Source: an uncultured Bacteroidota bacterium (GTDB lineage: Bacteria; Bacteroidota; Bacteroidia; Bacteroidales; UBA12077). From it: 64,000 bases of DNA. Shown here in pieces: positions 2,622 through 64,000 of the stretch; the stretch's first letter is position 1; the number at the start of each line of letters is the position of its first letter. The DNA is taken from NCBI GenBank assembly GCA_913055635.1, contig CAJXLK010000014.1, positions 27,504 to 91,503 of the forward strand. The letters run 5' to 3'. The notes under the pieces are model-generated. The model was not told the origin of the DNA and did no database searches. It saw nothing but the letters and a program-made list of their open reading frames with translations. The position numbers and the translations under genes are program-made.

Positions 2622-2881
2622 TGGCCTTACACAACAAGGCAATGCGTAAAGCATGGGGGTTCCATGGCAGAGGTTAGCGAGGCAACCGGATGTGCTATTA
2701 TTATATTGAAATACAGGCTTTTAAGTGAATTTATGCCAATGAATCCCTATGCACCGACTAGCACAAAAGGTAATGAATAAAACATGGGGGTTCCATGGCA
2801 GAGGTTAGCGAGACCAACGAATTACATGCTATTATTATACTGAAATACAAACTGTTAATTAAACTTTATACCAATGAATCC
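2622..2881 (+). repeat. Two tandem units of the dispersed MAEVTETNELHAIIILKYKLL repeat family
   Basis: GGGGGTTCCATGGCAGAGGTTAGCGAG occurs at about 2653 and 2786. The second unit continues ACCAACGAATTACATGCTATTATTATACTGAAATACAAACTGTTAATTAAACTTTATACCAATGAATCC, which matches 38.87-39.02 kb (reverse complement) almost base for base. Confidence 0.9.
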
Positions 2882-3567
2882 AGGTCGATTTCTTCGGTAT
2901 TGCTGGTGTCGAAGATCTGGCTATTCTCGAATTTGAGGGTTCGGGCCTCGAATTTTTTGACCAGTTCATAGGCATGGGTGGCCATTACAATGGTTTTGCC
3001 ATACTGGTTGATTTCCATCAGTAGTTTTAACAGGTCTTCGGAGGTTTCAGGGTCCAGGTTGCCAGTGGGTTCGTCAGCCAAAAGAATGGGCGGGTCGTTC
3101 AGAAGGGCCCGGGCAATGACCACCCGCTGTTGTTCGCCGCCGGATAACTGGTGAGGCATTTTATATCCCTTATAGGTCAGTTCTACCCTTTCAAGCACTT
3201 CATCGATGCGTGCTTTGATCGCTTTTTTGTCCTTCCATCCCGTGGCTTTCAGCACAAATTGCAGGTTTTCAAATACAGAACGGTCTGTAAGCAGACGAAA
3301 ATCCTGAAACACAATGCCCAGATTTCGCCGCAGGGTGGGAATATGCTTTTTTTTGATTTTTTTCAGGTTATAATCCAAAACATACCCATCTCCTTCTTTC
3401 AACGGAAGTTCGGCATTGATCACCTTGATCAGGGTGGTCTTGCCACTTCCTACCCGCCCGACAAAGTAGACAAATTCCTGTTCCCTGATATGAAGGTCAA
3501 TATTTTTAAGGATCAGGTTTTCGTTTTGATAAATATTGGCGTTTTCAAACTGAATCACATATTCCAT
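2866..3567 (-). CDS. ftsE: cell-division-type ABC transporter ATP-binding protein (FtsE-like)
   Basis: Walker [10 protein letters not shown], signature [15 protein letters not shown], Walker [13 protein letters not shown]; Bacteroidota FtsE-like length and layout. Confidence 0.85.
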
Positions 3568-3749
3568 AGGGCTCCCTTTTATGATTCTGGCAGGTTATTT
3601 GCAGGATTTATTACAACCCAACAAATGTAGAGAAAAAATAAAATAATCCGGGAAATTAACAGTTAAATGTTAATTAAAAGCCAGGTTTCGGCAAATAGGT
3701 TTCCGGGATTTGTTTTAAATTTATCCGAAATTCAACTGATGGCACGTTT

Positions 3750-6700
3750 ATGAAGTTGTTTGCATCCCCTTTACTGTTGCTGTTGTTGCTGACATTTGTC
3801 CCGGGGCGGGCACAGCAGAGCATGGAATTCAGCGGCATCAATAAGGTCTATCAAAAAGGCATGGATCTGTATGAGAAAGAGAAGTATGCAGCTGCGCAGG
3901 AGCAGTTTGAAATTTTTCTTGGACGAAGTAAGGGGACGGAGACAGGGATACGTGCTAATGCGCGGTATTTTATTGCCATGTGCGCGATGAAGCTTTACCA
4001 TGGGGATGCCGAATACTTGTTAGACCGCTTTATATCGGAATATCCTGAAAATTCGCGGGTAAACATGGCCCGTTATCAGATGGGCAAATATCAATACCGG
4101 CGAAAGCGATACTCAAAGGCTGTACGTTGGCTTAAACAGGTTGCCGGGGATCAGCTTCCCCGCGATCAGCAGGTTGAATACCGGTTCAAGCTGGGCTACA
4201 GTTATTATCAGCAAAACAGTTTGGATAAAGCCAGCCAGGCTTTTTATGAGATCAAGGATGGCCAGGCCACCTTTTCCAGTCCGGCCTTGTATTATTATTC
4301 GCACATTGCTTATAAACAAGGGAATTACCAGACGGCCCTGGAAGGCTTTGAACAGCTCACCGAGAATACGACCTTTTCACCCATCATGCCGTATTACATC
4401 AGTCAGATCTATTATTTACAGGAAAAATACCGGAAGGTAACCGGCTATGCCCCGCAATATGTCAGGTCGGCTTCGGCCAAACGGCTTCCCGAAATTGCCA
4501 AGATCGTCGGGGATGCCCATTATCACCTACAGGAGTATGACAGTGCCCTGACTTACCTACAATTGCATCAGAGCAAAGCTGAAACCCTAACCCGCGGCGA
4601 TCACTATCAGCTTGGTTATGTGGCCTACCGCCTTGACAGCCTGAATATGGCCATTGATCATCTCGAACAGGTGACCGGCCCTGAGGATGAAATGGCACAG
4701 AATGCTTACTACCATTTGGCCGACTGTTATTTGAGCACCGGCCAGAAGAATAAGGCAAAGCTGGCCTTCGAGTTTGCCTCTAAACTGAATTTTGACCCCC
4801 AAGTACAGGAGAATGCCCTGTTTAATTATGCCAAGATCACCTTTCAATTGCGCAACACCCCGTTTAATACGGCCATAAAGGCTTTTGAGCGATACATCGA
4901 ACGTTATCCCGAATCGGGCAACACCACACAGGCCTACAATTACCTGGTGAAGGCTTATATGAATTCCAACAATTACCAGGATGCCCTTGCCTCGCTGGAG
5001 GAGCTCGACCAACTGGATATGCCCCTTCGCAAGGCCTATCAAAAAGTAGCCTATTACCGCGGCCTGGAATTATACAACAACCAGAATTATGAAAAGGCCG
5101 TGGGGGCTTTTGATAAGTCGCTCCAATACAGCAATATAGATCAGGATCTGGCAGCGCGTTGCAAATACTGGAAAGGCGAAGCATATTTTCAGCTCGGCCG
5201 CTTTGACAAAGCAACCGGCAGTTACCATCGGTTTATCATGTCATCGGGGGCCTTTAACAGCAACCTTTATGAGCGGGCCCATTATAACCTGGGCTATGCT
5301 TATTTTAAGCTTGAAGACTTTAACAAGGCCATCAAATGGTTCCGCAAATACATCGGGTTTGAGGACCAGGGCTCATCCAATTACCTGGCCGATGCCTACA
5401 ACCGCCTTGGAGATGCCTATTTTATTCAGCGCAGCTATTGGCAGGCCATCGATTATTATGACCAGGCCATTGACCTGGATGTGCAGGACCAGGATTATGC
5501 CCTTTTCCAGCGGGGGTTTGCCCTGGGCTTGCTGAACCGGCCCCGGAAAAAGGTGAACACCCTGAAGCGGCTGGCTGACCGTTATCCGGAATCGGATTAT
5601 ATAGATGATGCCTATTTTGAGATGGGTAAGAGTTATGTGAGCCTGGAGCAGCCTCAAAAAGCCATTGATTACTTTTCGAGGGTTGTCGAAGATTATCCTT
5701 CCGGAAGTTATGCCAGAAAAGCCCTGGTTCAGCTTGGTCTGGTTTATTATAACCTGGACAACAATGAGCGTTCCATGGAGTTTTATAAACGGGTGATCCG
5801 CAACTATCCGGGCACTGAACAGGCGAAGGATGCCCTTACCGGGCTGAAAAATATTTATGTAGATCAGAACCGGGTCAATGAATATTTTGATTATGTCAAT
5901 GGGTTAGGGGATTATGCCCGTGTCAGCGTCAATGAACAGGATTCACTGACCTACATATCCGCAGAGAAAGTCTATATGCAGCAAAACTGCAGCCGCGCTA
6001 CCAGGTTGCTGCGGGATTACCTGAAAGATTTCCCCAAAGGCAGCTTCCGGGTTAATGCCCATTTCTATCTGGCCGACTGTTTGGATCGCAATGGCCGTCC
6101 TGGGCAAGCTTTAGCCCATTATGAACAGGTCATCGCGAACCTGCCGAATTCTTTTGCCGAGGAAGCCTTAAGCGGGGCCGCACAGATTACCCTGGACAAC
6201 AAAAATTATCGGAAGGCCCTGGACCACCTCCGCAAGCTTAAAGAAGTGGCTGAACTGCAAGGCAACATCATTTTAGCCCGGGTAGGGCAGATGCGCGCCT
6301 GTTTTGCTCTGAAAATGCATGATTGCGCCCTTGATGCGGCTGATCAAGTCCTGAAGACTGAAAAGATCAATGACCGCGAAAAACGCCTGGCTCACTTCAT
6401 TCAAGCCAAAACCCTGTTCAAACAACAAAAATACAGCAAGGCCCAGGAGGCTTTCAGTTCCATCTCCCATCAGGTTAACAGCAGCCAGGGGGCTGAAGCC
6501 AAATACCGGATTGCCCAGATCTATTTTAGGCAGGAAGCCTATCAGGCTGCTGAAGATGAGATTTTTGACTTTGTAGAACAAAATTCTTCCCAGGAGTACT
6601 GGAAAGCAAGAAGTTTTATCCTTCTGGCAGATGTTTACCGCCAAACGGGCGATCTTTTCCAGGCTAAACATACCCTGAAAAGCATCCTCGATAATTACCA

Positions 6701-7037
6701 GCCCGGTGAACAGGGCAAGGGCGATATTCTGCCCACTGCCAGAAGTAAATATAACCGGATACTGGAACAGGAAAAACAACAAAACCAACCTGACGATACC
6801 ACCAACGACCAGATGAAGATCCGTCTCGACCAAAGCGTGCCGGATACCACAAGGGGGGGCGGTGATTCACCAGCTCAGCAAAATTCTGGAGCACAGAATG
6901 GAGGTTCCCCCTCCGCCCGTGATACCCTGAAATCTCAGGGTCCATCCAGCCAGAAGAAGGATACCCTGCGGCAAAACATTAGCCCAGCGGAATCGTCCAA
7001 TCCATCTGGTTCAAAAAACGATCGCCATGCGCAGTAA
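3750..7037 (+). CDS. large tetratricopeptide-repeat protein with signal peptide
   Basis: 1095 aa; hydrophobic N-terminus LLLLLLLTFVPGRAQQ; many TPR units (e.g. YYRGLELYNNQNYEKAVGAFDKSLQ); low-complexity Ser/Gln/Asp tail. Confidence 0.9.
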   Translation: MKLFASPLLLLLLLTFVPGRAQQSMEFSGINKVYQKGMDLYEKEKYAAAQEQFEIFLGRSKGTETGIRANARYFIAMCAMKLYHGDAEYLLDRFISEYPENSRVNMARYQMGKYQYRRKRYSKAVRWLKQVAGDQLPRDQQVEYRFKLGYSYYQQNSLDKASQAFYEIKDGQATFSSPALYYYSHIAYKQGNYQTALEGFEQLTENTTFSPIMPYYISQIYYLQEKYRKVTGYAPQYVRSASAKRLPEIAKIVGDAHYHLQEYDSALTYLQLHQSKAETLTRGDHYQLGYVAYRLDSLNMAIDHLEQVTGPEDEMAQNAYYHLADCYLSTGQKNKAKLAFEFASKLNFDPQVQENALFNYAKITFQLRNTPFNTAIKAFERYIERYPESGNTTQAYNYLVKAYMNSNNYQDALASLEELDQLDMPLRKAYQKVAYYRGLELYNNQNYEKAVGAFDKSLQYSNIDQDLAARCKYWKGEAYFQLGRFDKATGSYHRFIMSSGAFNSNLYERAHYNLGYAYFKLEDFNKAIKWFRKYIGFEDQGSSNYLADAYNRLGDAYFIQRSYWQAIDYYDQAIDLDVQDQDYALFQRGFALGLLNRPRKKVNTLKRLADRYPESDYIDDAYFEMGKSYVSLEQPQKAIDYFSRVVEDYPSGSYARKALVQLGLVYYNLDNNERSMEFYKRVIRNYPGTEQAKDALTGLKNIYVDQNRVNEYFDYVNGLGDYARVSVNEQDSLTYISAEKVYMQQNCSRATRLLRDYLKDFPKGSFRVNAHFYLADCLDRNGRPGQALAHYEQVIANLPNSFAEEALSGAAQITLDNKNYRKALDHLRKLKEVAELQGNIILARVGQMRACFALKMHDCALDAADQVLKTEKINDREKRLAHFIQAKTLFKQQKYSKAQEAFSSISHQVNSSQGAEAKYRIAQIYFRQEAYQAAEDEIFDFVEQNSSQEYWKARSFILLADVYRQTGDLFQAKHTLKSILDNYQPGEQGKGDILPTARSKYNRILEQEKQQNQPDDTTNDQMKIRLDQSVPDTTRGGGDSPAQQNSGAQNGGSPSARDTLKSQGPSSQKKDTLRQNISPAESSNPSGSKNDRHAQ

Positions 7038-8700
7038 AATATGTTTACCCATCATGATGCTGGCCCTATTTCTTTTGGGCCAGCCCGCAGAAGCCCAAAA
7101 GCAGATAGATAAACAGGTGCAGGTGGTTAAAGCCTATCAGCCCCGGGTGAAGGATGCCTACAAGATCACACGGTTGCCAGAAATCTCCGATACCTCCCAG
7201 ATAAGACCCGAGTTTGACTATTATATCCTGCCCCGCCGGATCGAGCCTCACGTAGAGGTCGATTCCATTCCGGCTGCAACCATGGTGGGAGAACCCCTCA
7301 CTGAATACTATAACAGTTACCTCAAACTGGGAATGGGCCATAAGATCGCTCCGCTGCTGGAATTTTCCATGACCAACAAGCGCTCTGAAGATCATGCCCT
7401 GGGGGTTTTCCTCCGGCATCATTCCTCCGCCGGTAAAGTGGATCTGTCCAACGGCCAGCGCGCCCCGGCCAATTATGCCCGCAATCAGGCCAGGGTCTTC
7501 GCCAAGAAGTTTTACGACCATGCCGTGTTAGATGGAAACCTGGGGGTCAAAAGCAATACCAGCTACTTCTATGGCTACGACCTTTCCCTGGATACTTCCC
7601 TTTATAGGAATAAAAAGGAAATTAAACAGAATTATTTTAGTTTCCGCGCCAATACCGGGTTGAAAAGTACCTACATCGACTCCGCCCACTTGAATTATGA
7701 CTTTGACCTGGATTACCATTACCTGAGCGATCGCTTTGAGAGCCGGGAGAATCAGGTAGCTCTTACTGCCAGGCTCGACAAATACTATGATCAGAATCAT
7801 GTGGGCATTCATACCGGGGTGAACTACCTCAACCGGGCTTTCCCGTCCGATACCACCACCAATACCCTGATCCGGTTTAAGCCCTGGATAGCCCGCTTTG
7901 GCGAGGGATGGCGCATACAGGGTGGGGTGAACTTCTTCATCGATGCCGTCAACGGCAATACCAATGCCCGTTTTTATCCGGTGGCCAATCTTGAATACGA
8001 CATCGTCTCTCAGTATATTATCCCTTATGCCGGGGTTGACGGCAAGATTGACCTCAACTCTTATGACCGCATTACCCGGGAAAACCCCTTCGTCCTGCCC
8101 GGGCTGAAGGTGAAAAATACCAATTATAAGCTGATTTTTTACGGAGGAATAAAAGGCAATCTGTCCAGTTCGGTTTACTATAATGCCCAGGCCAAATATT
8201 CTTTCTTTGACGACAAGTACTTTTTTATTAACGATATTGCCCATACCGACAGCGCTGCCAATCAATTCAATGTAGCCTATTATGAAGGGGAGCGGATGAA
8301 CCTCTTTGGTGAACTGGCCATTGACCTGAGCCAGCAACTCCACCTGCGCATGGAGGGCAACTACTATCAGTATGTTCTCTACGATGAACAGGCCAAAGCA
8401 TGGCATAAACCCACATACGATATGACCTTCTCAACGCGTTATAACCTTCGGGAAAAGATTATTTTCAATGCCGATGTTTACCTTAGCGGTCCGAGATGGG
8501 TTAAATCAGGCATCAGATATGGAGAGGAAACCAAACTGGATGGTTTTGTCGATATCAACCTGGGTGTGGAATATCGCTATTCAAAAGTACTGTCCGGTTA
8601 TCTTAAATTGAACAACATCCTTGCCAACAACTATCAAATCTGGAATCATTACCCGGTTTATGGCATGCATGCCTACCTTGGCATTACCTACGCTTTTTAG
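7027..8700 (+). CDS. outer-membrane beta-barrel-like protein (TonB-dependent-receptor-related)
   Basis: Signal peptide LALFLLGQPAEAQ, alternating aromatic/polar strands through the C-terminal half, ends ...HAYLGITYAF (C-terminal Phe). Overlaps the upstream TPR ORF by 11 bp. Confidence 0.7.
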   Translation: MRSKICLPIMMLALFLLGQPAEAQKQIDKQVQVVKAYQPRVKDAYKITRLPEISDTSQIRPEFDYYILPRRIEPHVEVDSIPAATMVGEPLTEYYNSYLKLGMGHKIAPLLEFSMTNKRSEDHALGVFLRHHSSAGKVDLSNGQRAPANYARNQARVFAKKFYDHAVLDGNLGVKSNTSYFYGYDLSLDTSLYRNKKEIKQNYFSFRANTGLKSTYIDSAHLNYDFDLDYHYLSDRFESRENQVALTARLDKYYDQNHVGIHTGVNYLNRAFPSDTTTNTLIRFKPWIARFGEGWRIQGGVNFFIDAVNGNTNARFYPVANLEYDIVSQYIIPYAGVDGKIDLNSYDRITRENPFVLPGLKVKNTNYKLIFYGGIKGNLSSSVYYNAQAKYSFFDDKYFFINDIAHTDSAANQFNVAYYEGERMNLFGELAIDLSQQLHLRMEGNYYQYVLYDEQAKAWHKPTYDMTFSTRYNLREKIIFNADVYLSGPRWVKSGIRYGEETKLDGFVDINLGVEYRYSKVLSGYLKLNNILANNYQIWNHYPVYGMHAYLGITYAF

Positions 8701-8751
8701 ACCTTTACTGAGAAGGGATGTAGAAGGGTGAAAATGCTCAAAAAAACCTGA

Positions 8752-10884
<2,133 letters not shown>

Positions 10885-10916: not shown

Positions 10917-10943
10917 GCCCCGCTAAGCGAAGTGAAAGCGGGG
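10917..10943. repeat. CCCCGCT...AGCGGGG hairpin
   Basis: CCCCGCT-aagcgaagtgaa-AGCGGGG; loop shares AAGTGA with the hairpin at 2579-2612. Confidence 0.6.
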
Positions 10944-16679: not shown

Positions 16680-16905
16680 TGCCCCTCCCCATTTGGTACT
16701 GGCAACATCTATTACTCCTGCGACCTCTCTGCCACAGGTAACTGAATTGAACCTGGAAATTCATAAGGAGATAACTTAGTTAATAGTTTGTAACTCAATA
16801 TGGTCTGAATCTTAAAACAGACATTATGTGGTCAATCATTATGGAACCCGCATGTATATCCATGTCCTTGTTGTGTAAGTTCTTGGATGCAGGTTTCATT
16901 TGGAT
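16680..16905 (-). repeat. Diverged copy (plus partial second unit) of the dispersed repeat family
   Basis: Reverse complement begins AAATGAAACCTGCATCCAAGAACTTACACAACAAGGACATGGATATACATGCGGGTTCC. Later TTGAGTTACAAACTATTAACTAAGTTA parallels CTGAAATACAAACTGTTAATTAAACTT; a further CTGTGGCAGAGAGGTCGCAGGAG resembles ATGGCAGAGGTTACCGAGACC. Confidence 0.75.
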
Positions 16906-17199
16906 CAAGACTTATTATCGGTTTTAAATCGGCCTGATATTAACCATCATCCTTTGTTAGCGACGTTCTCGCCATGGGCCTGGCATAGCCCCGCCTAATT
17001 GACCCCGTTGAGCGAAGTCTGCAGAGAAGCTTAGTCCGCTTTGCGGGGTAAGTTTGTTCTTTCGGACCCGATTGATGAAACCCGTTTATTGATTCACCTT
17101 CTTGGTAGGATCATAAATGCATTCGGGTTTGATTTGGCCGGCCCCGAATATCAACCAATAGGGGAGTGAACATTTAGAAGCGGCGATTTTACAGAAGAT

Positions 17200-26374: not shown

Positions 26375-26624
26375 CGTTTTGGTTTTTAGGGTTGATCAAT
26401 GTTGAGGGCTTATCGGGCTCTTGCAGCAGGCATTTGAATTGCTTCTTGCCTTTACCGTTTGGCTCCATGCTACAGTTTGATTGCTCCTTCCCGTTGCGAA
26501 CTTTTCGTTTGATCATGGTGTGTTAAAGTACTGTAATAAAAACTGTTGAAGGACTCCGGTTCAATGTTTTTGAGGCGATTGCCCGGGAATCCAAATCATT
26601 GATTCATCAATTTTTTACCATGTT

Positions 26625-26790
26625 CCCTGCATGCGGATTTCATTCAGATAAAGACTTATTTGGGGTTGTCAATCGGTGTAGTATCACACCATCATTTATT
26701 CTTATCGGTTCTCTCGTTTTGGAACACGTGGGTTTAATACATTTACTTGTTGTGTGATTCCGTGCATGCGGGTTCATTGGTGCCGAATGG
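26625..26790 (-). repeat. Diverged copy of the dispersed repeat family
   Basis: Reverse complement ACCAATGAACCCGCATGCACGGAATCACACAACAAG...GTTCC...CAAATAAGTCTTTATCTGAATGAAATCCGCATGCA keeps both terminal motifs (AATGAAxCCxGCATGCA) and ACACAACAAG. Confidence 0.65.
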
Positions 26791-27320
26791 TGAATGACCG
26801 GTGACGTTTTCTTTGAGGGAAATGCTATTCAGTAAGGAAATAGGGCTGTCTGATGTCACAAATTCCCCCTTCGTTTGCTTTGTCTGGTTGCTTGTTTTGT
26901 CTAATTTGCTTGCTTTGTCTAACGATCGCTTAGGAAAAAAACAAGTGCCCGGTAAAAACTTTAATATGCTGACTTGTAAAGATATATAGCAAATGGCCTT
27001 GTGATCTAACCAAATATACAAGATACATTTTATCAAAGGAAGTTGTATTGTAAAAATCGGACAAAATCAGGTTTTTATCAAAACGATGTCTAACGGTTTG
27101 GTGTAAAGCACTACAGTGTTAACATGAAATATTTTTTTGGGTTCATCAGGCAGGGGCTTTTATGCAGGGGTTGATAAATGAGGGGGTAGGAGTTTACAAA
27201 GTCCACTTTACGGGGCGTAAGGATGATTAAACTTTTTGCCGGGTGAACTGTTTCTTATTCGCTGTCGGGATTTGTGCGTAAAGCATGGATTGGTGTAATA
27301 AACTTAAACATTAATTTTCA

Positions 27321-28508
27321 ATGAAAAGGATTGATCGAAGAATCATTATAGTGGGGGCCTTTTTTTTCATCATTGGAATGGCATATGGGATTATGAGGTT
27401 TCTCATTGCCCAGGAAGAGGACCCGCGTATGCGCCCGCCTGTGGAGGCCAAGCGATATATACAGGCCGAGGCGGTGGATTATCAAAGGGTGCAATCTTCG
27501 GTAACGGCAACCGGCCGGGTTGCTTCATTGGCCCAGGTTGATCTGGTGGCGGAAGCCTCCGGTAAGATTCAGGTCTCCGGGGTGCCTTTGAAGCGGGGAA
27601 GCCGTTTTTCCCGGGGAGAAGTTTTATTCACGGTTTATCCCGATGAAGCCGCTTTAGCTCTTAAATCCAAGAAGAGTCGCTTTTTGCAGAGCCTGGCCGG
27701 CCTGCTGCCGGATTTGGTAATGGATTATCCTCAGGCCGGGGAACGTTTCCGCAGTTTTTTCAACCGCATCGACCTGAACAGCGAATTGCCGCCCTTACCT
27801 GAGGTTCATCGTGAACAACTCCGCATTTTTCTTGCCAGCCGCAATCTGCTAAGTGACTATTACGAGATTAAACGGGAGGAACTGAAGTTTGCCCGGTATA
27901 CGGTTCGTGCTCCTTTTGACGGGGCTTATCAGCAGGTTTATCTGGAGGCCGGTGCTTATACCAATACGGGTGGCCGGGTGGGGCACATCATCCGCACCGA
28001 TATGCTTGAGCTGGAGATTCCTCTTAAGCGATTTGATGCCCAGTGGATTGATATTGGCGATGGGGTAACGGTCCATGCCGATAAAAGGCCCCGGCAATGG
28101 CAGGGGCGTGTGGTCCGCAAGGCCCCTTTTGTCGATGCCGACAATCAGTCGCAGGGGATCTTTGTAGAGGTGCCCAACGATCCGCAACAGCCTTTGCTTC
28201 CCGGAGAGTATCTCCAGGTTACTTTTCCCGGACAACCCGTGGAAGGTGTTATGAAGGTGCCCCGCAATGTGGTCTTTAACAGCAATGAGGTTTTTGTGGT
28301 CAATGATGACCGCCTCCATAAACGCGTTATCGATATCGTCAAGGTCAACGAAAAAAGCCTTTTGTTCAGGGGACTGGAAAAAGGCGAAATGCTGGTGATG
28401 CAACCCTTGATCAATGTGCAGGAGGGCACCCTGGTGGAAATTCTTGATCAATCCACCGCAGCCGGGGGAATGAAAGATCCGCAAAGCGAGGCCGCTCCCC
28501 GGCCATGA
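27321..28508 (+). CDS. RND efflux periplasmic adaptor (MFP/HlyD family), system A
   Basis: N-terminal TM, VTATGRVASLAQVDLVAEASGKI, YTVRAPFDGAYQQVYLEAGAY, PRNVVFNSNEVFVV. Confidence 0.9.
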   Translation: MKRIDRRIIIVGAFFFIIGMAYGIMRFLIAQEEDPRMRPPVEAKRYIQAEAVDYQRVQSSVTATGRVASLAQVDLVAEASGKIQVSGVPLKRGSRFSRGEVLFTVYPDEAALALKSKKSRFLQSLAGLLPDLVMDYPQAGERFRSFFNRIDLNSELPPLPEVHREQLRIFLASRNLLSDYYEIKREELKFARYTVRAPFDGAYQQVYLEAGAYTNTGGRVGHIIRTDMLELEIPLKRFDAQWIDIGDGVTVHADKRPRQWQGRVVRKAPFVDADNQSQGIFVEVPNDPQQPLLPGEYLQVTFPGQPVEGVMKVPRNVVFNSNEVFVVNDDRLHKRVIDIVKVNEKSLLFRGLEKGEMLVMQPLINVQEGTLVEILDQSTAAGGMKDPQSEAAPRP

Positions 28509-31500: not shown

Positions 31501-31753
31501 GAGTGTCCAGGCTCAGTTTTTGATCCCGATGGCCATCAGTCTGGCTTATGGGGTTTTTATCGGCACCATTTTTATTTTAATCTTTTTTCCGGTGCTGATC
31601 ATGTTGTTGAATGATGTAAGGGTGTATTTCAAATATCTGTGGACCGGCAGCAAACCGGAGCGCGAATCGGTGGAGGTTGCCATTATGCTCAACAACCGCC
31701 GCCGCTCATATGAGGCGGATCCCGAAAGAGCCCCCGAAAGAGACCCCGCTTAG
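28532..31753 (+). CDS. RND-family efflux transporter permease (AcrB/MexB-type), system A
   Basis: 1073 aa; ISVYYPGASPEEMEEGI, GILVDDGIVIAENIY, GVIINDAIVFLAKYD, RLRPIILTSITTTVGLFPI. Confidence 0.95.
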   Translation: MRRIVERFVEYPIYANLIIAFVLLAGGYSLISMNKAFFPERESRYISISVYYPGASPEEMEEGITARLEEAVRGIVGIKEMTSTSMENSSRVSLETTGAYPIDEVLMEVKNAVDGISALPSAAERPVVSKQRSRSPAVRMSLRSSDQSQVELMTLKDHAQRIEEDLFNSGVISQISLSGFPSPEISVEVREEALLRYDLTFADLMSAISNNNQDISGGQIKSAEQELLIRLRSRSTDPNKIGRIILRGKPDGGYIRIGDVAEVKKKFAETSYETWVNGKQAISIHIEKLPEEDLEAITEYVDQYIDEFNARNQGVQLDLSRAFLNILQSRLDLLTKNGMIGLALVVLSLSLFLNIRLSLWVSFGIPFSFLAMFIMAHQLGITINMISLFGMILVIGILVDDGIVIAENIYLYFEKGMTPMKAAVEGTLEVLPAVLTSIATTIVAFAPLLFLAGTRMEMMYHMAIVVIGALFFSLFEAFFVLPAHLSSHHVLTRRSLGAKGRGVKRYFEGFIVWLRENVYHHMLHWLIKQRHAVVAIPVALILITAGLYFGGHIRNTFFPMVDFDSFEVNVAFTPGDGEQQTKVHLRRFEKAIWAVNEDLKIRLNREADVIERVSSTMGYAFRGQERGAHAGNIRVYPVDLEGLPLSGHQIANMVRAKIGPVPEALKYTAGGRSRWGSAVSIGLMSSNLQELEAAKNYLMKRLSELPQLKDITENVALGKQEIRLELKPKAYFLGLDERAIATQVRRGFYGGQAQRLQDGRDELRVWVRYPREDRLTRGQLERMKIKTSSGEYPLIELAHYHLERGPVAINRYNGSREIRVEAETVDPYASVPAIIDQIEQQIMPDVKSRFAGIRYMEQGQAKSSNEALSRVGGYFLVAFIVIIFLMILHFKSINQMLIILAMIPLSMLGVFWGHGIHDKPLSIISLWGMIALTGVIINDAIVFLAKYDSLLLKGHKVADAVVEAGKLRLRPIILTSITTTVGLFPIILEKSVQAQFLIPMAISLAYGVFIGTIFILIFFPVLIMLLNDVRVYFKYLWTGSKPERESVEVAIMLNNRRRSYEADPERAPERDPA

Positions 31754-33305: not shown

Positions 33306-33938
33306 TTTTTTAAGGATTGAAGGTTTAAAAAGTCTTACCTGAACCAAAAAGTCTTTTAGATACCCACCGCAAAGAAGGTCCAATAGAAAAGAGGGGCCAT
33401 CCATTATTGACGGGCTTTATGGAATGTGCGGTTTGCGGATGGACCATTTATAGAGGATGGCCCAAAGGGTATCATCCACCCAAGCAAGTTACTTCCTGCC
33501 GGGAAATTTGTATTGTATAAATCGGACAAAATAACATTTAAAAAGATTTAATTGAAAGCGCACTGTCAAAAGGAACCTACCCCCAGCTATCCAATTGTAG
33601 GATAACCTGATATGGGTTGTTTATGGGTATAATTATCTGTATATAAATGTTTTTGTTATTATCTTATGTACTGGCTCAATTTGCAAGTCGGTTAAGGTCT
33701 GCTCAGCCTTAAGGATGCCTCCCCGCTATTGATTTCTACCGCAGAATGGCATCAGAGAAAATAGTGATTTATCCCCTGCCAATTATTGGATGTATTATTC
33801 AATTCTTTTTAATTGTTATGCCTGTATTTTTTTGAAATACAAAGTATAATGGGATATATCCTGTATAAGTATGCACATTTTTACAATGGATAATTGAATA
33901 TTTTTGATCAGAAATGTGATTAAATTTATTATAATTAA

Positions 33939-38753: not shown

Positions 38754-38868
38754 GGCTGTGAAGGGCTGTTTTAATCGATTTGAAATATAACTGATTTGAT
38801 GCTCACTTCAATGCTTTGATCTATCGCCCTGCAACCCCCGTGCTTTATCTATCGCCGTGTTGTCTGAG

Positions 38869-39027
38869 TCAGTGCATGCGGGTTTCATTCGTATAGAGTT
38901 TAATTAACAGTTTGTATTTCAGTATAATAATAGCATGTAATTCGTTGGTCTCGGTAACCTCTGCCATGGAACCTGCATGAATAATCATGTCCTTGTTGTG
39001 TAGGTTACTGGATGCAGGTTTCATTGG
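38869..39027 (-). repeat. Best-preserved copy of the dispersed repeat; contains an intact 51-codon ORF (39024..38869)
   Basis: Reverse complement translates without interruption: [51 protein letters not shown]. Its ATG (39024-39022) overlaps the TGA stop (39023-39021) of the upstream histidine kinase. Confidence 0.85.
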
Positions 39028-40040
39028 GTTTGTATTTTCAGATAAACTTCAAATATCTGTTCTTTCTCCTCGATGTTTAGCTCATGGCGTTTGGGATAGA
39101 GCACCTTAAGGCGCTGACGTACGTTGGGAATGCCAAGTCCCTGGCCGGCTGCGGGTTTACCGTTTGGCGGCAGGGAGTTGACGATGCTGAAATATAAAGT
39201 TCCGTTGGCAGAACGGAAGATCATTTGCACATAAGCCCGGGGGTCCTCTTCCACCTTGCTGAATTTAAAGGCATTTTCAATGAACGGGATAAATAGCATC
39301 GGGGCGATCACCATTTTTCCGGAAGCTTCCTCATGCTCGAGGCTGATGTTTTGTTCCTTCTCCGACTTCATTTGCTGGAAAGCAATGAAGTTTTTGATGT
39401 ATTCCAACTCTTCGCTTAAGCGCACTGTATCATTGCTGCAGTCATAAAAGACATAGCGCAGCATCTCGGAAAGCTTCAGCACGCTTTCCGGGGCCCGTTG
39501 TGAACGGGAATAGGTCAGGGCATAGATGTTGTTTAACGCATTGAAAATAAAATGCGGGTTGATCTGTGCCTTTAGCAGTTTCAATTCGGTGCCCAGCTTT
39601 TCTTCCTTGAGATTTTTCTCCCGGATGGCCTGCCTTTTTACGGTATTGGACAGGTAAAGGGTGATGCTGATGAAGTTGGCCATCAGAAACAGGAAAAGTG
39701 AACGGACAATCAGGAAAAGGGCCGGTGGCGTACTGTGATTCTCATATATCTTGTGGGGCTGTATGAGCATCTGATCCATCAGATAATGTCCCAGGCTGAG
39801 GATAATGAGAAGCAGGATGTTCAGCATCAGGAATTTGGTTCGTCTTTTTTGGAAAAAATAGCGGGGGATCAGCACATATTCATTCAGGATGAATAAAAGG
39901 ATGATCAGCGTGGCTGTTATTCCTCCCAAAAGCAGGGTAATCTGAAGGGGAAAAAGGTGGCTCGCCGGCAGGGCCATGACCATGGAGATGGCCAGGATGA
40001 TCAATATTTTGTTGACCAGCGGGGGAATTCTCCTGTTCAT
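39021..40040 (-). CDS. LytS-type sensor histidine kinase (His_kinase domain)
   Basis: LKAQINPHFIFNALNNIYAL, LSEMLRYVFYD, APMLFIPFIENAFKFS, GLGIPNVRQRLKVLYP. Confidence 0.95.
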   Translation of the reverse strand: MNRRIPPLVNKILIILAISMVMALPASHLFPLQITLLLGGITATLIILLFILNEYVLIPRYFFQKRRTKFLMLNILLLIILSLGHYLMDQMLIQPHKIYENHSTPPALFLIVRSLFLFLMANFISITLYLSNTVKRQAIREKNLKEEKLGTELKLLKAQINPHFIFNALNNIYALTYSRSQRAPESVLKLSEMLRYVFYDCSNDTVRLSEELEYIKNFIAFQQMKSEKEQNISLEHEEASGKMVIAPMLFIPFIENAFKFSKVEEDPRAYVQMIFRSANGTLYFSIVNSLPPNGKPAAGQGLGIPNVRQRLKVLYPKRHELNIEEKEQIFEVYLKIQTQ

Positions 40041-44919: not shown

Positions 44920-46270
44920 CCGAATGTTGCAAAAAGGAAACATCATGAGACATCTACTGGTTCTGTTATTTCTTGTGGCATCCCTGCCGCTGTGGGGACA
45001 GCAGAAAGAAGATCTTTCCCTGGAGGATGCCATTAACAAAGCCCTGGAAAACAATTACGGGATCATCACCAGTGAAAAAAGCCAACGCATCTCCCGGATG
45101 AACAACACCTGGGGCAATGCGGGGGCTCTGCCCACTGTGCGTTTTTCCGGACAGGGCAATACTTCCAGAAACTTCAATGATACCGATAACTATACCTCCC
45201 AGCAGATGAGTGGTACGGTTCAGATGAACTGGACGATCTTTCGCGGATTCAGTGTTCGGATCCAAAAAGACCGTTTGGAAAAGCTCGAGAAGCTCTCCGA
45301 GGGCAATCTGGCGGTGGTCGTTGAAAATACCATTTTCAGTGTGATCATGAGCTATTACAACATCCTGCTGTCCAAAGAACAGCAGGATATTGCCCGCACC
45401 AACATGGAGCTCTCCCGCGACCGCTATGAGCGGGCTCAACACAGCAAGGAGATCGGCAGCATGGTCACCTATGATCTGTTGCAGGCCAAAAATGCCTACT
45501 TGCGCGATAGTTCCGATTACCTCTCGGCCCGCTCTTCATACCGCAATGCCGTCAGGGAGCTTAACTATCTGATGGCTACTCCGCTTCAGGAGCGTTATGC
45601 GTTTACCTCCAGCTTTCAGCCCGATACCAGCGATTTTGCCTACAGCAACCTGGTGCAGAAGATGCTCGAAAACAACAATACCCTGGAGAATCAGTATATG
45701 AATCTTGAACTGGCCCGCCTGGATGTGCGTTCGGCCAAAAGCGCCTACTATCCCAGCCTGTCACTGAACGCCTCTGGCGGCTATTCGGACAGCGAAACCG
45801 ATTATGAAACCATGAACAACCTTGACCAGAGCCGTTCCGGGGCCGATGCCTCCATCGGGGTGTCGCTGTCCTACACCATTTTTGACGGCAACAACCGGAA
45901 AAGAGCCCTGAAAGCGGCCCGGATCCAAAAGCAGATCTCCCAGGTGAAAACCGAAGAGATGAAGCAGGATCTGAAAAATCAACTGGCCCAGGAGTTTGAA
46001 CTTTATCGCGTGCGCAAACAGCTGCTACAGGTGGCCGACGAAAACCTGAAAGCCGCTGAGCTGAATCTGGAGCTCTCCCGGCAGAAATTTGAAAACGGAA
46101 CCATCAACTCGTTCAATTTCCGCGATATCCAGCAACTCTATATGGATGCTGCCTACAACTATCAGCGGGCCGTGTTCAACGTGATTCAAAGCTATCATAC
46201 CCTGATGCGCCTGACCGGAGGTATCATCGAAGAGTACGAAGGCGAACAGGCCATGGAGAACCAGGAGTAG
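44894..46270 (+). CDS. TolC-family outer membrane efflux protein, system B
   Basis: Overlaps the permease; signal peptide MRHLLVLLFLVASLPLWGQQ suggests a start near 44945. LSLEDAINKALENNYGI and YYPSLSLNASGGYSDS are TolC-like. Confidence 0.93.
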   Translation: MKNVNKMNNRMLQKGNIMRHLLVLLFLVASLPLWGQQKEDLSLEDAINKALENNYGIITSEKSQRISRMNNTWGNAGALPTVRFSGQGNTSRNFNDTDNYTSQQMSGTVQMNWTIFRGFSVRIQKDRLEKLEKLSEGNLAVVVENTIFSVIMSYYNILLSKEQQDIARTNMELSRDRYERAQHSKEIGSMVTYDLLQAKNAYLRDSSDYLSARSSYRNAVRELNYLMATPLQERYAFTSSFQPDTSDFAYSNLVQKMLENNNTLENQYMNLELARLDVRSAKSAYYPSLSLNASGGYSDSETDYETMNNLDQSRSGADASIGVSLSYTIFDGNNRKRALKAARIQKQISQVKTEEMKQDLKNQLAQEFELYRVRKQLLQVADENLKAAELNLELSRQKFENGTINSFNFRDIQQLYMDAAYNYQRAVFNVIQSYHTLMRLTGGIIEEYEGEQAMENQE

Positions 46271-46271
46271 G

Positions 46272-46379
46272 ATGAGGAAATGATTAAATGAGGAAATGGT
46301 TAAATGATAAAATGAATGCTAGAATGATTAAATGGTTAAATGCGTGAATGCTAAAATGAGTAAATAAAGGAATAAATGA
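46272..46379 (+). repeat. Degenerate 8-bp tandem array (ATGNNTAA)
   Basis: ATG at 46272, 46280, 46288, 46296, 46304, 46312, then (4-bp slip) 46316, 46324, 46332, 46340, 46348, 46356; ATA at 46364 and 46372. Confidence 0.88.
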
Positions 46380-46404
46380 AATAATCATTTCTTCATTCAT
46401 GCTC

Positions 46405-56000: not shown

Positions 56001-56050
56001 AATAGCCGTAGGTTTGCCCCCTTGGATGAACAGGTGAAATTTGAAGCAAT

Positions 56051-57909: not shown

Positions 57910-58040
57910 AGTTGTTTCGGCCGGGCTTGTGTTTGAGGGCTTTGCTTGTTTTGGCCAACAAAAGAAAAGAGACCCGCAGGTATTTTGGATTTGCCAATTA
58001 TTTGTTAACATTGCAGGTGAACCTCAAATATGGTGGTTGA

Positions 58041-58973
58041 ATGAAAGGCATCGAGGTTTTTGCACCGGCTACGGTTTCCAACCTGGGCAGTGGATTTGAC
58101 ATCATCGGGTTTCCGGTGGAAGACATCGGGGATGTGGTGGTGATCAAACCCGTTTCGCAGGCCGAGATACGTATTGTTCATCTTGGGGGGTATGGGGATA
58201 TTCCCCGGGAAGTGGAAAAAAACACGGCTTCTTTTGCTTTGGGGAAGATGTTCCAGAAGCTGGAGGTCAAAAGGGGCGTGGAGTTGGAGATCTACAAGGG
58301 CATCCGCCCGGGCAGCGGCATTGGCTCGAGTGCTGCAAGCGCCGCAGCTGCCCTGACCGGTGCCAATGAATGGCTGGGCAGGCCTTTGAGCCAGCTTCAG
58401 CTGGTGGAACTGGCCATGGAAAGTGAAGGGATGGTATCGGGCAGCCGACATGCCGACAATGTAGCGCCTGCTTTGATGGGAGGCATTACGGTGGTGCGCA
58501 GTTACAACCCCCTGGATATTTTCCGGATTGAACCCCCCGGCCAACTTTACACTGTGCTGCTCCACCCCCACATCGAGGTGAAAACCCAGACCAGCCGCAA
58601 AATACTTCCCCGCCAGGTGAAACTGGAAGATGCCGTCCGCCAGTGGGGCAATGTAGCAGGATTGATTGCTGGCCTTCAGCGCGGCGACTATGATCTGATC
58701 GGCCGGTCAATGGAAGATGTCATTGTTGAACCCGCCCGCGCCCGGTTAATACCCGGTTACGATCAGCTCAAGACTGCCGCCGTGGAGGCTGGTGCCCTGA
58801 ACTGCTCCATCTCCGGGTCAGGCCCTTCCGTGTTGGCTTTGTGCAAAGGCCGGGAAAATGCCGAAAAAGTCAAATCAGCCATGGATCAGGCTTACCAAAA
58901 CCGGCAAATAAGCTTTCAAAGCCTGATTACCAGGGTGAACCCTCGTGGAGCGGTTGTTCAAAGAAAATGGTAG
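58041..58973 (+). CDS. thrB: homoserine kinase
   Basis: EVFAPATVSNLGSGFDIIGF, GSGIGSSAASAAAALTGANEW, LNCSISGSGPSVLALC (GHMP kinase). Confidence 0.93.
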   Translation: MKGIEVFAPATVSNLGSGFDIIGFPVEDIGDVVVIKPVSQAEIRIVHLGGYGDIPREVEKNTASFALGKMFQKLEVKRGVELEIYKGIRPGSGIGSSAASAAAALTGANEWLGRPLSQLQLVELAMESEGMVSGSRHADNVAPALMGGITVVRSYNPLDIFRIEPPGQLYTVLLHPHIEVKTQTSRKILPRQVKLEDAVRQWGNVAGLIAGLQRGDYDLIGRSMEDVIVEPARARLIPGYDQLKTAAVEAGALNCSISGSGPSVLALCKGRENAEKVKSAMDQAYQNRQISFQSLITRVNPRGAVVQRKW

Positions 58974-59117
58974 ACCCCCGCGCTCTGAGACACCATATTC
59001 CCCGAAAAGGGTGTGTCATCAGGAGGTTTTAAATGCATGCTTCGCCCGGCTTTCAAAAAGCCGAGACAATGGTTTAATAAAACAAAATGTAGCACTTGCA
59101 AAATCAAACCGTTTGCC

Positions 59118-60425
59118 GTGAAATTTTATAACATCAATCAACCCCGCGAGCGGGTAAGCTTTCGCCAATCGGTGCTTCAGGGGGCTGCCTCCGGAAAGGG
59201 CCTCTACTTCCCCGAAAATATACCGGTCATTTCTCCATCCCGGCTGGCCGAAATGGAAAAAATGGACCTGCCCCAGCTTGCCGCCCATCTGTTGTACGAG
59301 TTTGTCCGGGAGGATTTTTCCTTTGAATCTTTTGAGGAGCTGTGTCAGCGGGCTTTCAACTTTCCCATCCCCCTTAAGGAAATTGATCCCCGGCTTTATA
59401 CCCTGGAACTGTTCCATGGGCCTTCCCTGGCCTTTAAAGACATCGGGGCCCGTTTTTTATCCCAGACCCTGCAAAAATTTTCCGGCAGTTTTAACCGGGA
59501 AATCACTGTTTTGGTGGCCACTTCCGGTGATACGGGCAGCGCGGTGGCGCAAAGCTTCTTTAATGTGGAAGGCATCCGGGTGGTTTTGCTTTATCCCTCG
59601 GGCAAGGTTAGTGATCTGCAGGAAAAGACCCTGACCACCGTGGGGGGCAATGTGGAGGCCCTGGAGGTGGACGGGGCCTTTGACGATTGCCAGCAACTGG
59701 TCAAACAAGCCTTTGCCGATCAGGAACTCACCTCCCGGCTGGTGTTGACATCGGCCAATTCCATCAATGTGGGGCGTTTCCTGCCCCAAATGGTTTACTA
59801 TTTCTGGGCCCTGTTTCAACTGCCCCGCGATAAACGCAACCGGGTGGTCTTTTCTGTGCCCAGCGGTAACTATGGCAACCTTTCGGCCGGGCTGATGGCC
59901 TGGAAAATGGGCCTGTCTGCGGCCCGGTTTGTGGCTTCCTCCAACATCAACCGGGTGTTTCCCGATTACCTGGATACAGGCCGCTATCAACCCCGCGATC
60001 CGGTATCCACCCTCTCTAATGCCATGGACGTGGGAAACCCCAGCAACTTCGTTCGGATCGCCGAGCTTTTTAACCACGACCATCAAGCCATCCGCCGGCT
60101 GGTGAGTTATTATGTGGGGGATGATCCACAGATCCGCCAAACAATAAGGCAAGTGGCCGAGGAAAAGGATTATATCCTGGATCCCCACGGCGCTGTGGGC
60201 TACCTGGGCTGCCAAAACCAGCTTCAGCCCGGAGAAACCGGTGTTTTCCTGGAAACGGCCCATCCCGCAAAATTTCAAAATACCGTGGAAACATCCATCC
60301 ACAACAAACTGCCCCTGCCCGAATACCTGGACCGAATGTTGAAAAAACAAAAACAGGCCACTCAAATGCCGGCCGATTATCCCTCGTTTAAAGCCTGGCT
60401 GCTTGACCGCCTGGATCAACCCTGA
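59118..60425 (+). CDS. thrC: threonine synthase
   Basis: HGPSLAFKDIGARFLSQTL, VATSGDTGSAVAQSFF, VPSGNYGNLSAGLMAWKMGL. The track start at 59013 adds an unrelated N-terminus; GTG at 59118 (MKFYNINQPRERVSFRQSVLQG) fits better. Confidence 0.92.
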   Translation: MKFYNINQPRERVSFRQSVLQGAASGKGLYFPENIPVISPSRLAEMEKMDLPQLAAHLLYEFVREDFSFESFEELCQRAFNFPIPLKEIDPRLYTLELFHGPSLAFKDIGARFLSQTLQKFSGSFNREITVLVATSGDTGSAVAQSFFNVEGIRVVLLYPSGKVSDLQEKTLTTVGGNVEALEVDGAFDDCQQLVKQAFADQELTSRLVLTSANSINVGRFLPQMVYYFWALFQLPRDKRNRVVFSVPSGNYGNLSAGLMAWKMGLSAARFVASSNINRVFPDYLDTGRYQPRDPVSTLSNAMDVGNPSNFVRIAELFNHDHQAIRRLVSYYVGDDPQIRQTIRQVAEEKDYILDPHGAVGYLGCQNQLQPGETGVFLETAHPAKFQNTVETSIHNKLPLPEYLDRMLKKQKQATQMPADYPSFKAWLLDRLDQP

Positions 60426-60674
60426 AAATATTCCGGAAGTGCCCCCTGGCCTAGTTTAGCGCAAAAAGCTGACTGGTTCGCCTCCAATACCATCGCCAAA
60501 AGTACCCCGTGGTGAATACTTAACCGCCCAGGTGGATAGATATTCTCGCCTCAACCAGCCTGCATCTATACTATAGAAAGGCCATTCGCGTTATAATAAC
60601 ATATTGGGATATCGAGTCAGCGATTGGCTGGCAGCCCTTTTGATTGGCTTCAATTTTCTGTAAATTTGGGGTAT

Positions 60675-61640
60675 ATGAACCTGGCCCGGCAAATATTCGA
60701 CAAAGATCTTGACAAGGTAACCCTTCAGGACCTGGAGGCGTATTTTTCGACCCCGCGCGAAGAGAGTTCCGTATTGGAGTTTAAGAGCGGCCAGGTGAAG
60801 ATCAACAGCATATTCAAGGAGATTTGTGCTTTTTTGAATACGGAAGGGGGGTTGATCATTGTAGGCAGCCCGAAAGAGCGTAAGGTGCAGAAAACGGGGC
60901 GGGTTCAGCGTCGGATATGCCAGGGGAAGCTTATCCCGTCGGGCTTCCGCGACAAGCAATGGATTGCCGGGCTGATTGCTGCCAATATTGTGCCTTATCC
61001 GGCGGGCATACATATCCATGAGATCAGCGACGAGCAGGGCAATTATTTCATCTTTGAGGTGCCCCAAAGTTCCAATCCCCCGCATCAATTTTTGAATGAC
61101 GGGCGGTATTATATCCGCCTGGAAAAGGAGGCCAAACCTGCCCCACATGGTTTGGTGGAAGCCCTTTTTTATAAACGGGTACGGGCCCAGCTAAGAGCCG
61201 ATGTGAGCATTCAGGCCAGCCAAAGCCAAAGAGCGACCTACAACCAGGTTCAAATTGATATCCGCAATACTTCCTCTTTCCCTACGGATCAGGTTTCTTA
61301 CCTGATTCGCGTGCTGAATGTGGAAGAGATCCTGCCCAACGGCGATCCCAGTGCCCAGTCTTTTTCCGGGGAAAACGGCAACTTTGAACTCCATGGTTGT
61401 GCCCAACAAGCCCTGGTCGATGAAAAAACCCTCCCCATCCGCTTTGAACTGGTCAATAAACAGGAACCCTTTATTGTCTCGGTCATCGCCTGGAATAAGG
61501 AAGCCGGCATGTTTAAACACCACGGGCTTTTTGACCCGGTCAACGGCCACTATATTGACCGTTTTCAAACCGGCGAGCCGCAGGAGAAAACTGTGAAGGA
61601 CCTCTGTGATACCCTCCAGGAGATTCGCAATCAACTGTAA
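60675..61640 (+). CDS. AlbA_2 (Schlafen-like) domain-containing protein
   Basis: REESSVLEFKSGQVKINSIFKEICAFLNTEGGLIIVGSP; start ATG 60675 (MNLARQIFDKDLDKVT). Confidence 0.8.
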   Translation: MNLARQIFDKDLDKVTLQDLEAYFSTPREESSVLEFKSGQVKINSIFKEICAFLNTEGGLIIVGSPKERKVQKTGRVQRRICQGKLIPSGFRDKQWIAGLIAANIVPYPAGIHIHEISDEQGNYFIFEVPQSSNPPHQFLNDGRYYIRLEKEAKPAPHGLVEALFYKRVRAQLRADVSIQASQSQRATYNQVQIDIRNTSSFPTDQVSYLIRVLNVEEILPNGDPSAQSFSGENGNFELHGCAQQALVDEKTLPIRFELVNKQEPFIVSVIAWNKEAGMFKHHGLFDPVNGHYIDRFQTGEPQEKTVKDLCDTLQEIRNQL

Positions 61641-62124
61641 AACCCCACTTCAAGATTTAATGCCCGATATAAGCCATCCCCCATAAAACAGCTTTACCCT
61701 GGAACCATCTTATCTTAAAACTTACCCCTGGCTGTGGTCGTGAAATGTCGATTTTGCCTGCAAACATTTTTTTCAGGGTTGGGCTTTCTTTCCGTTGGAT
61801 TTTATTAAGGTTGACCTGTCCGGAAAAGCGACTTTCCCCGAAAAAAAAGTGCATGCAATCATTTTATTTTGTACCTTGTTTACGATAGATATATTTGGTT
61901 AAACGCTAAATGTTGGTTGATTTTAATGAAGCTGTTCTATCAAATCAACAATTCTTAAGGAGGCTAGTTATTTAATTGTTTATTGATGGTCAACATATAA
62001 TTATAATGATCAACCACCTTATATTATAGATGAGGCCTACAGGAAAAATTTTTCAAAACGGATTGTGTCTTTATGGAAAGATATAGCTCAAGGGTTGTAT
62101 AGCTTATTTGATTAAACCGGTTTT

Positions 62125-62820
62125 TTGATGGATTATGATCACAGTATAGACACTGGGTTGCCCCTGGTTATCCTGCACAACACCATCAGTTTGGATGGGG
62201 CCATGAGTGGTTTTCAGATTGATGAAGACCTGCATTATAAGATGGCCACGGCATTGCAGGCCGATGCCTATCTGATCGGGGCCCATTCATTCCTCCATGC
62301 TTCCGATGAAATACCCCCGGAAGAGGAGGGGGATTTTTTGCATCCCGGATATGATCACGCCGACATCCGGCCGTTTTTACTTGTGGTCGACAGCCAGGGG
62401 CGTTTAAAGGGGAAGCTGCATTATTACCGGAAGATGTCGTATATCAAAGATCTTATTGTTTTAATCTCAGATTCAACTTCGCGCCAATACCAGGTGTACC
62501 TGAAGGAAAGGCATTATCCTTTTGTGAAGGCAGGTAAGGAGAAAGTTGAATTTAAGCAGGTTTTTCAGCAGCTTAAAGATCAGTATCATATTGACCGCAT
62601 TTTGACCGATACAGGACCGGTCCTTGGCAATGCCCTTTTGGCGCAAAATATGATCGATGAGCTTAGCCTGCTGGTAGCTCCTATGATCGTGGCTAAAAAA
62701 GATGTTCCCAAGATTATGACCGACCTTGATTTGGAGTCGCATCAAATATCATTGCAGACATTGGATTGTAAAAATTTAGGCAACAACCATCTTTGGCTTC
62801 GCTATAAAGTACAAAAATAA
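62125..62820 (+). CDS. dihydrofolate reductase-like / RibD C-terminal domain protein
   Basis: LVILHNTISLDGAMSGF, ADAYLIGAHSFLHA, DRILTDTGPVLGNALLAQNMIDELSLLVAPMIV. Confidence 0.8.
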   Translation: MMDYDHSIDTGLPLVILHNTISLDGAMSGFQIDEDLHYKMATALQADAYLIGAHSFLHASDEIPPEEEGDFLHPGYDHADIRPFLLVVDSQGRLKGKLHYYRKMSYIKDLIVLISDSTSRQYQVYLKERHYPFVKAGKEKVEFKQVFQQLKDQYHIDRILTDTGPVLGNALLAQNMIDELSLLVAPMIVAKKDVPKIMTDLDLESHQISLQTLDCKNLGNNHLWLRYKVQK

Positions 62821-62844
62821 AATACCCCAAAGCATCGGTTGATA

Positions 62845-63858
62845 TTACCCATTCCACAGCGGGAGGGTAAAATGAAAGTCGCTGCCCTTGTCCACTTCAC
62901 TCTCCACCCAAATGGACCCGCCATGTTTCTCAATGAATTCTTTGCTCAGGATTAATCCCAGCCCCGTACCTTTTTCCCTGGCCGTGCCTTCTTTGGATAA
63001 GGCGCAGTCAATATCAAAAAGGTGCTCCAAATGTTCAGGGGCGATGCCGGTTCCGGTATCGGAGACGGTGAATTGAAGTTGATGGCCGCTCTTTGTGGTG
63101 GTAACGTGTACAAAACCATCGGGAAAGGTATATTTTAAAGCATTGGTTATTAAGTTTCGCAAAACGGTTTTTACCATTTCCCGGTCGGCCAAAACCGGAG
63201 CCGAGCTTTCAGAGGCCGACTTTAAATGGATGTTTTTTGAATCGGCCGTCGGCCTGCACAATGCCTCAACTTCCCTGATCATTTCCACCGGATCCGTTTT
63301 ATCTTTTTTAGGTTGAAGCTCTCCTCGCTGGATTTTTGCCCATTTCAGCAGGTTTTCCAGTAAATGGTATGCATTTTTAGAGCTATGGTGCATTTGTTCT
63401 GCCATGTGCCTGATCTTCTCAGGAGAATACTTGTCCACATTCCGGCTCAGTAACTGGCTCATGCCGAGGATGGAGTTGAAAGGATTTTTCAGGTCATGGC
63501 CGATGATTGAGAAAAATTTGTCCTTGGTGGCATTCACTTCACGGAGCTTTTCATTTTTGACCTCCAGCTCCTTCTCCTTGTTTTTTATGCGTTTAAATAC
63601 CGGTTCAATCAGAATGATGCCCGTCGAGATCAGGATAGAGATGACCAGGGCTACATATTCAGCGCTTGAAGCCCCTACCGCAACCGAATCACTTTTTATC
63701 AGGGAGATCAGTGATATCAGCCTTCTCACAGCCATCAAGGTGATGGCTGTAGCGATCAGTATCCAGGAGAAGTAGCGGCCTGTCACGAAAATGAGCCGGA
63801 TGGCAAAGAAAACCGCCACAAGTTGAAAAGCAATGGATATGATTAGGATGGCTATCAT
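62845..63858 (-). CDS. membrane sensor histidine kinase
   Basis: FFSIIGHDLKNPFNSILGMSQLL (H box), NLITNALKYTFPDG (N box), TVSDTGTGIAPEHLEHLFD, KGTGLGLILSKEFIEKHGGSIWVES. Confidence 0.95.
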   Translation of the reverse strand: MIAILIISIAFQLVAVFFAIRLIFVTGRYFSWILIATAITLMAVRRLISLISLIKSDSVAVGASSAEYVALVISILISTGIILIEPVFKRIKNKEKELEVKNEKLREVNATKDKFFSIIGHDLKNPFNSILGMSQLLSRNVDKYSPEKIRHMAEQMHHSSKNAYHLLENLLKWAKIQRGELQPKKDKTDPVEMIREVEALCRPTADSKNIHLKSASESSAPVLADREMVKTVLRNLITNALKYTFPDGFVHVTTTKSGHQLQFTVSDTGTGIAPEHLEHLFDIDCALSKEGTAREKGTGLGLILSKEFIEKHGGSIWVESEVDKGSDFHFTLPLWNG

Positions 63859-63916
63859 GAAAAAGCCTCTTTATATCAAAGCTAATCAATTTTTAGTTTA
63901 AAACCATATTTTAACG

Positions 63917-64000
63917 AATGAATCCCTCATGCACCGACTAGCACAAAAGGTAATGAATAAAACATGAGGGTTCCATGGCAGAGGTTACCGAGACCAACGA
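63917..64000 (+). repeat. Dispersed repeat copy running off the window end
   Basis: AATGAATCCCTCATGCACCGACTAGCACAAAAGGTAATGAATAAAACATGAGGGTTCCATGGCAGAGGTTACCGAGACCAACGA, nearly identical to 2738-2820. Confidence 0.9.

Follow-up and report, generated by a model that had tools for sequence, protein, structure and literature searches.

A 64,000-nucleotide (nt) stretch of contig CAJXLK010000014.1 from an uncultured Bacteroidota bacterium (the window) carries units of a repeat family that I read, with somewhat better than even confidence, as a non-autonomous mobile element whose enzyme is supplied in trans and probably works on DNA in a folded, single-stranded state. The family is new and widespread; the broader kind, non-autonomous hairpin elements, is already known. 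A first-pass annotation of the window had suggested a non-autonomous, dispersed, tandem-capable mobile element, and this is supported; the fold is conserved and matches nothing in Rfam. What that annotation missed was where each element begins and ends, that ATGAA is the target, that there is a second stem (P2), that elements sit at start codons and how widely they occur.

The whole element is about 90-137 nt long in the host genome and consists of a hairpin, P1, followed by a tail, S. P1, as judged from about 90 copies listed in register, is a 58-60-nt hairpin with ATGAAACC at its start and GGTTCCAT at its end, and the tail spans about 24-78 nt, its ends pairing as the short stem P2. The host genome has four tail types, namely A (GGCAGAGG..., about 77 nt), B (AATGATTGACC..., about 76 nt), C (AAGGCC or ACGGCC..., about 31 nt) and D, which is old and degenerate, and the hairpin preceding a tail largely predicts its type. 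Immediately 3' of the tail comes, in almost every case, ATGAA, which begins the next unit, a gene or intergenic sequence. The terminal motif earlier described at both ends of a unit is indeed seen there, but only the left copy is the element's own start, the right copy being the start of the next element or the target ATGAA. A longer hairpin variant, ATGAAACGTCCATGACAAAAT...ATTTTGTCATGGTAAGTTCCAT, possibly a further subfamily, occurs at the start of stretch L148, where a C-type tail follows it, in right flanks at C11:48342 and C4:36424 of the host genome, and in L249 and L286.

With the 39-kb unit as blast query, the 4.08-Mb draft genome of the host (G000) gave 67 matches, and R1, a covariance model built on the core hairpin, found at least 144 copies, a lower bound, 150 candidates having been scored, so the family is larger than first reported. 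The half-site ATGRAACCYNCAT occurs 223 times in this genome and its reversed-pattern control twice; the repeat numbers are far above chance. Several contigs end inside copies, which is what assembly-breaking repeats would lead one to expect. Identical and near-identical copies lie inside one genome, and the subfamilies are species-specific. Beyond the host, R1 matched 17 of 25 genomes of its taxonomic family and, at E <= 1e-5, 29 of the 295 genomes sampled from the order, which fall in 25 of 184 genera. When public genomes were scanned for the exact pattern, at least 77 stretches were returned, all Bacteroidota by their titles, including metagenome bins of Bacteroidales and other Bacteroidota, Tangfeifania, Paludibacteraceae, Culturomica and a bin labelled Sphingobacteriaceae. 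Viral contigs held no match to the exact pattern, and plasmid and phage records none to a single-element query in each; carriage by a phage, plasmid or virus was set aside on these searches. No Rfam family matches, and the open-access literature yielded no described equivalent.

A covariation analysis, which the first-pass annotation had proposed as a check for structure, found strong compensatory change in both P1 and P2. Among 23 diverse short-tail elements 91.6% of the P1 and P2 pairs are standard and 8 pairs are changed on both sides, with 59 such cells against 19.6 +/- 4.1 in shuffled data; the covariation score was reached by none of 500 shuffles and was lost on sliding. P2 is also recovered independently across all tails, its first pair with 61 against 24 +/- 4 and its second with 47 against 23 +/- 4. 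Covariation in P1 is almost strictly Watson-Crick. Of 169 distinct hairpins, 162 share an A.C mismatch at P1 position 4; read from the bottom strand, it becomes a G.T wobble.

The element has a target. ATGAA lies 18-110 nt downstream in 168 of 204 elements, taken from 55 genomes or genome sets, as against 38.6 for shuffled flanks, and the distances fall into sharp length classes (31, 76-78, 27-29 and 43). In the host genome 25 of 55 terminal copies stand directly before the start of an open frame 80 or more codons long, and in the public-genome set a gene start lies within 130 nt at 44 of 77 loci. The window has 71 ATGAA sites placed either at a gene start or outside genes, and 20 of them are gene starts; measured against this, such starts are moderately over-represented among element targets. 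Most of the terminal copies before no such frame still abut ATGAA, which argues for a target and not merely for selection of start codons. The target is the ATGAA pentamer itself, very often a start codon. Deviant right pentamers (GTGAA, ATGAG, ATCAA) occur with left ATGAA, and left TTGAA or GTGAA with right ATGAA; since the two sides deviate independently, they do not represent a target-site duplication, for which a check had been proposed. Head-to-tail arrays, with periods mostly of 133-142 or 84-91 nt, are expected should new units enter at ATGAA, since each unit brings a fresh target in its first five bases.

Orthologues in sister species were sought for ten genes that follow an element in the host genome (G002, G003 and G004 are further genomes of the genus). 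The MoxR gene of G002 has an empty site, ...aatttgggaaaaattctgatttttt|ATGAATCAAAGC; in the host the matching upstream stretch is followed by some other sequence, by one old and one young element and finally by ATGAATCAAACC. An ABC-permease gene is without the element in G003; in the host, repetitive extragenic palindromic (REP) sequences, an old unit and a young unit stand there. The start codons of the metG and metF orthologues in sister species are likewise free of elements. At these loci the old unit is the farther from the gene, so the younger units entered at the gene's ATGAA, and the absence of elements from orthologous genes in sister species shows that they are mobile.

Repeat units at all five places first reported are borne out by sequence inspection and R1 matches. 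Inside the window, the family is represented by:
2608..2738 (+), old copy with degenerate 5' part: hairpin remnant 2608-2665 and S1-type tail, abutting ATGAA at 2739
2739..2873 (+), subfamily A element: hairpin 2739-2796 and S1 tail, target ATGAA 2874-2878
16765..16899 (-), subfamily B element: hairpin 16841-16899 and S2 tail, target ATGAA 16764-16760
17075..17133 (-), degenerate hairpin (R1, 23.1 bits)
26586..26643 (-), degenerate hairpin (R1 match 26586-26641), in tandem with the next element
26644..26777 (-), old element with D-type tail (..ccgataagaa..aataagtctttatctga) and degenerate R1 hairpin 26719-26777, abutting ATGAA at 26643
38829..38888 (-), degenerate tandem hairpin, beginning at ATGAA after the tail of the next element
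38889..39024 (-), subfamily A element: hairpin 38966-39024 and S1 tail
63918..64000 (+), subfamily A element: hairpin 63918-63976, cut by the window end
The unit once placed at 16.68-16.90 kb is present, but its true end is at 16765, not at 16.68 kb. The hairpin of the 38889..39024 element supplies the TGA stop of the upstream open reading frame (ORF) 39021-40040. Two further repeats were seen in the window: a 35-nt intergenic sequence, TTGTATTGTAWAAATCGGACAAAAT, 86% identical at 27040-27074 and 33505-33539, near the genes at 27321 (+) and 33404 (-), and tandem 8-nt repeats of AATG type at 46263-46382, lying at and just past the end of the gene that stops at 46270.

How might such an element move? 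On the bottom strand it lies 3' of TTCAT and its own end is ...GGTTTCAT (TTTCAT). This is the layout of IS200/IS605-type (Y1 HUH) insertion sequences, which have a hairpin at one end and are flanked at the opposite end by a short, fixed cleavage sequence. I infer that an enzyme acting on the folded bottom strand excises and inserts the element in trans. The 5' foot of P1 (ATGGAA on the bottom strand) could pair with the element's own TTTCAT and could also, coaxially with P2, pair with the flanking target TTCAT and so act as a guide. Guided target pairing is known for IS608, and in IS200/IS605 elements the guide, located at the foot of the hairpin, base-pairs with the cleavage and target sites (PMC5934647). 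Insertion at start codons is probably tolerated, as Shine-Dalgarno sequences are rarely used in Bacteroidota and S provides an A/T-rich leader; their general absence from Bacteroidetes is reported (PMC3155529). A bolder proposal, which I hold only tentatively, is an undescribed, order-wide class of transposable element with its own target-pairing sequence in folded DNA, aimed at ATGAA start codons, that would bring a portable leader in place of the gene's and be moved by an enzyme other than a Y1 transposase or an integron integrase.

Several observations weigh against the reading of an element moved in trans through folded DNA, or against parts of it. No mobilising enzyme was found. Genomes G002-G004 gave no PF01797 match, only the REP-type homologue described below, and no P1 hairpin lay near any Y1, PF01797 or REP-associated tyrosine transposase (RAYT) gene examined. 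The empty sites are between species, not strains. Outside the host genome, departures from pairing in P1 number 10 G.T and 10 A.C, so that mismatch bias does not fix the active strand; these equal departures, together with near-strict Watson-Crick covariation, suit a DNA-level structure, and the strand is not settled by them. Variants with a GTG/CAC foot were found in G153, G325 and G402, with the target readable in two: it is GTGAA in G153 and ATGAA in G325, a mixed outcome for the proposed rule by which the guide would specify the target. These rare elements lie in L360 and L453 (G153) and in L432 (G325), the G153 copy at the GTG start of a response-regulator-like gene. The earlier statement that no transposase is nearby holds, there being none inside or beside the element. 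A recurrent neighbour gene was considered as the enzyme and abandoned, all-against-all protein clustering at 77 loci revealing no gene that recurs beside the elements.

In this family a widespread mobile element inserts at the start codon, where bacterial genes are most sensitive, yet apparently leaves them intact, and it rewrites the 5' leaders of housekeeping genes (e.g. metG, metF and a MoxR ATPase). This offers a natural test of how translation starts in Bacteroidota without Shine-Dalgarno sequences. The fixed target and the folded ends point to an undescribed recombination activity or to an undescribed substrate of a known one.

The alternative that survives best, though I consider it unlikely, is that the units belong to the REP sequences, as large and atypical members, and are mobilised by the host's RAYT, which is similar to TnpA_REP subclass 2.6. 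Only one Y1-type gene was found in the host; it encodes a REP-type transposase and is divided between two contigs. Each of the five genomes of the genus has one RAYT homologue. In both G002 and G003 the RAYT gene has kept its place and its neighbours, which I take to be TPM-domain-like. Syntenic single-copy RAYT genes in three species are found at L031:3-227 with L218:1-435, at L219:204-788 and at L220:2617-3201. NCBIfam NF047646 matches the G003 homologue with E 1.3e-16, which is below the curated cut-off. The motifs NHFH (in three species of the genus) and YIHQNP resemble those of subclass 2.6 of Bacteroidetes, which is reported beside atypical hairpins and with REPs that lack GT[AG]G (PMC6006769). 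However, not only do hairpins of the P1 type keep away from the Y1 and RAYT genes, as noted above, but the host RAYT is flanked by a palindrome of its own, CCCCGCTWAGCGGGG, which G000 carries in 540 copies and its relatives in 0-2. In the window this palindrome lies at 31744, 31811 and 50543 (+), with degenerate copies at 10918 and 50609. P1 is common to species whose RAYT genes adjoin other palindromes, as those of G003 and G002 do, and several RAYT-bearing members of the taxonomic family show no hairpin. The finding of this separate palindrome family led me to reject the RAYT as a linked carrier.

Less probable still is a cis-regulatory leader RNA, in which CAT in the 3' arm of P1 would pair either with the ATG of the P1 5' arm or with the AUG of the gene and so switch translation. 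The two predicted pairings are mutually exclusive, the second being predicted as the most stable in the sequences folded, and about half of the copies stand, in sense orientation, ahead of a start codon, a larger share than the 20 of 71 among the window's tolerated ATGAA sites. Against this, many copies stand before no gene yet keep ATGAA, units form tandem arrays, the downstream genes are unrelated, and the pairs that vary in P1 follow Watson-Crick rules almost strictly. A regulatory leader role may nonetheless coexist as a side effect of insertion.

I regard it as improbable, more so than the leader, that P1 is an integron-like site, resembling attC, for a tyrosine recombinase. It shares with attC a folded single hairpin, head-to-tail arrays and AAC/GTT at the feet. 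However, the outer boxes of attC have the consensus RYYYAAC/GTTRRRY, which those of P1 do not fit, the P1 stem runs through with no unpaired spacer at its centre, the tails vary and carry no genes, and no recurrent gene stands beside the elements. A miniature inverted-repeat transposable element (MITE) of a DDE transposase, with P1 as terminal inverted repeats, is very improbable: the P1 arms do resemble 12-13-bp inverted repeats, but the mobile unit is P1 plus S, so that they are not at both ends, and the ATGAA at the two ends, being independently variable, is not a duplication. A mobile small ORF, as the first-pass annotation had raised with a 51-amino-acid peptide, can practically be dismissed. 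That frame is open in the 39-kb copy, but only 1 of the 20 S1 copies without gaps keeps it open; across all elements it is open in 16 of 168, where shuffles predict 14.4, so that species taken together show no excess of open frames. It also carries an in-frame TAG at codon 8 in one of the two most frequent hairpins among the sequence stretches taken. The internal frame is open in 18 of 20 S1 copies, and its substitutions show no bias towards third positions. The ATG of the small ORF exists because the element starts with the target pentamer.

Among known systems, the REP sequences, with the bacterial interspersed mosaic elements (BIMEs), REP doublets forming hairpins (REPINs) and RAYTs, are likewise short, intergenic, high-copy, hairpin-forming and non-autonomous, with species-specific subfamilies. 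In contrast to them, this element has a 60-nt compound hairpin, an obligatory tail, a second stem, a fixed ATGAA target and same-orientation tandems, and it lacks both the GT[AG]G foot (ATGAA/TTCCAT in most copies) and linkage to a RAYT. It resembles the structured RNAs of 5' untranslated regions in Rfam by its covarying stems directly upstream of start codons, but it is dispersed, tandem, gene-independent and without an Rfam match. Integron attC sites and clusters of attC sites lacking integron-integrases (CALINs) also have folded sites in head-to-tail arrays, but here there is no R/L box architecture, there are no gene cassettes and no integrase was seen beside the elements. The likeness to IS200/IS605 is on the bottom strand, where the element is inserted 3' of the short, fixed TTCAT with its hairpin at the far end, without inverted repeats at the two ends and without target duplication. 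However, the element also ends in target-like sequence and has one main hairpin, not one per end, no tnpA-bearing relative sharing its ends was seen at the PF01797 genes examined, and no classical tnpA was found in most genomes of the genus. Thus, I place the family among the non-autonomous hairpin elements because it works like them, whereas REP sequences, attC sites, DDE MITEs and Rfam leaders each fail in a tested feature.

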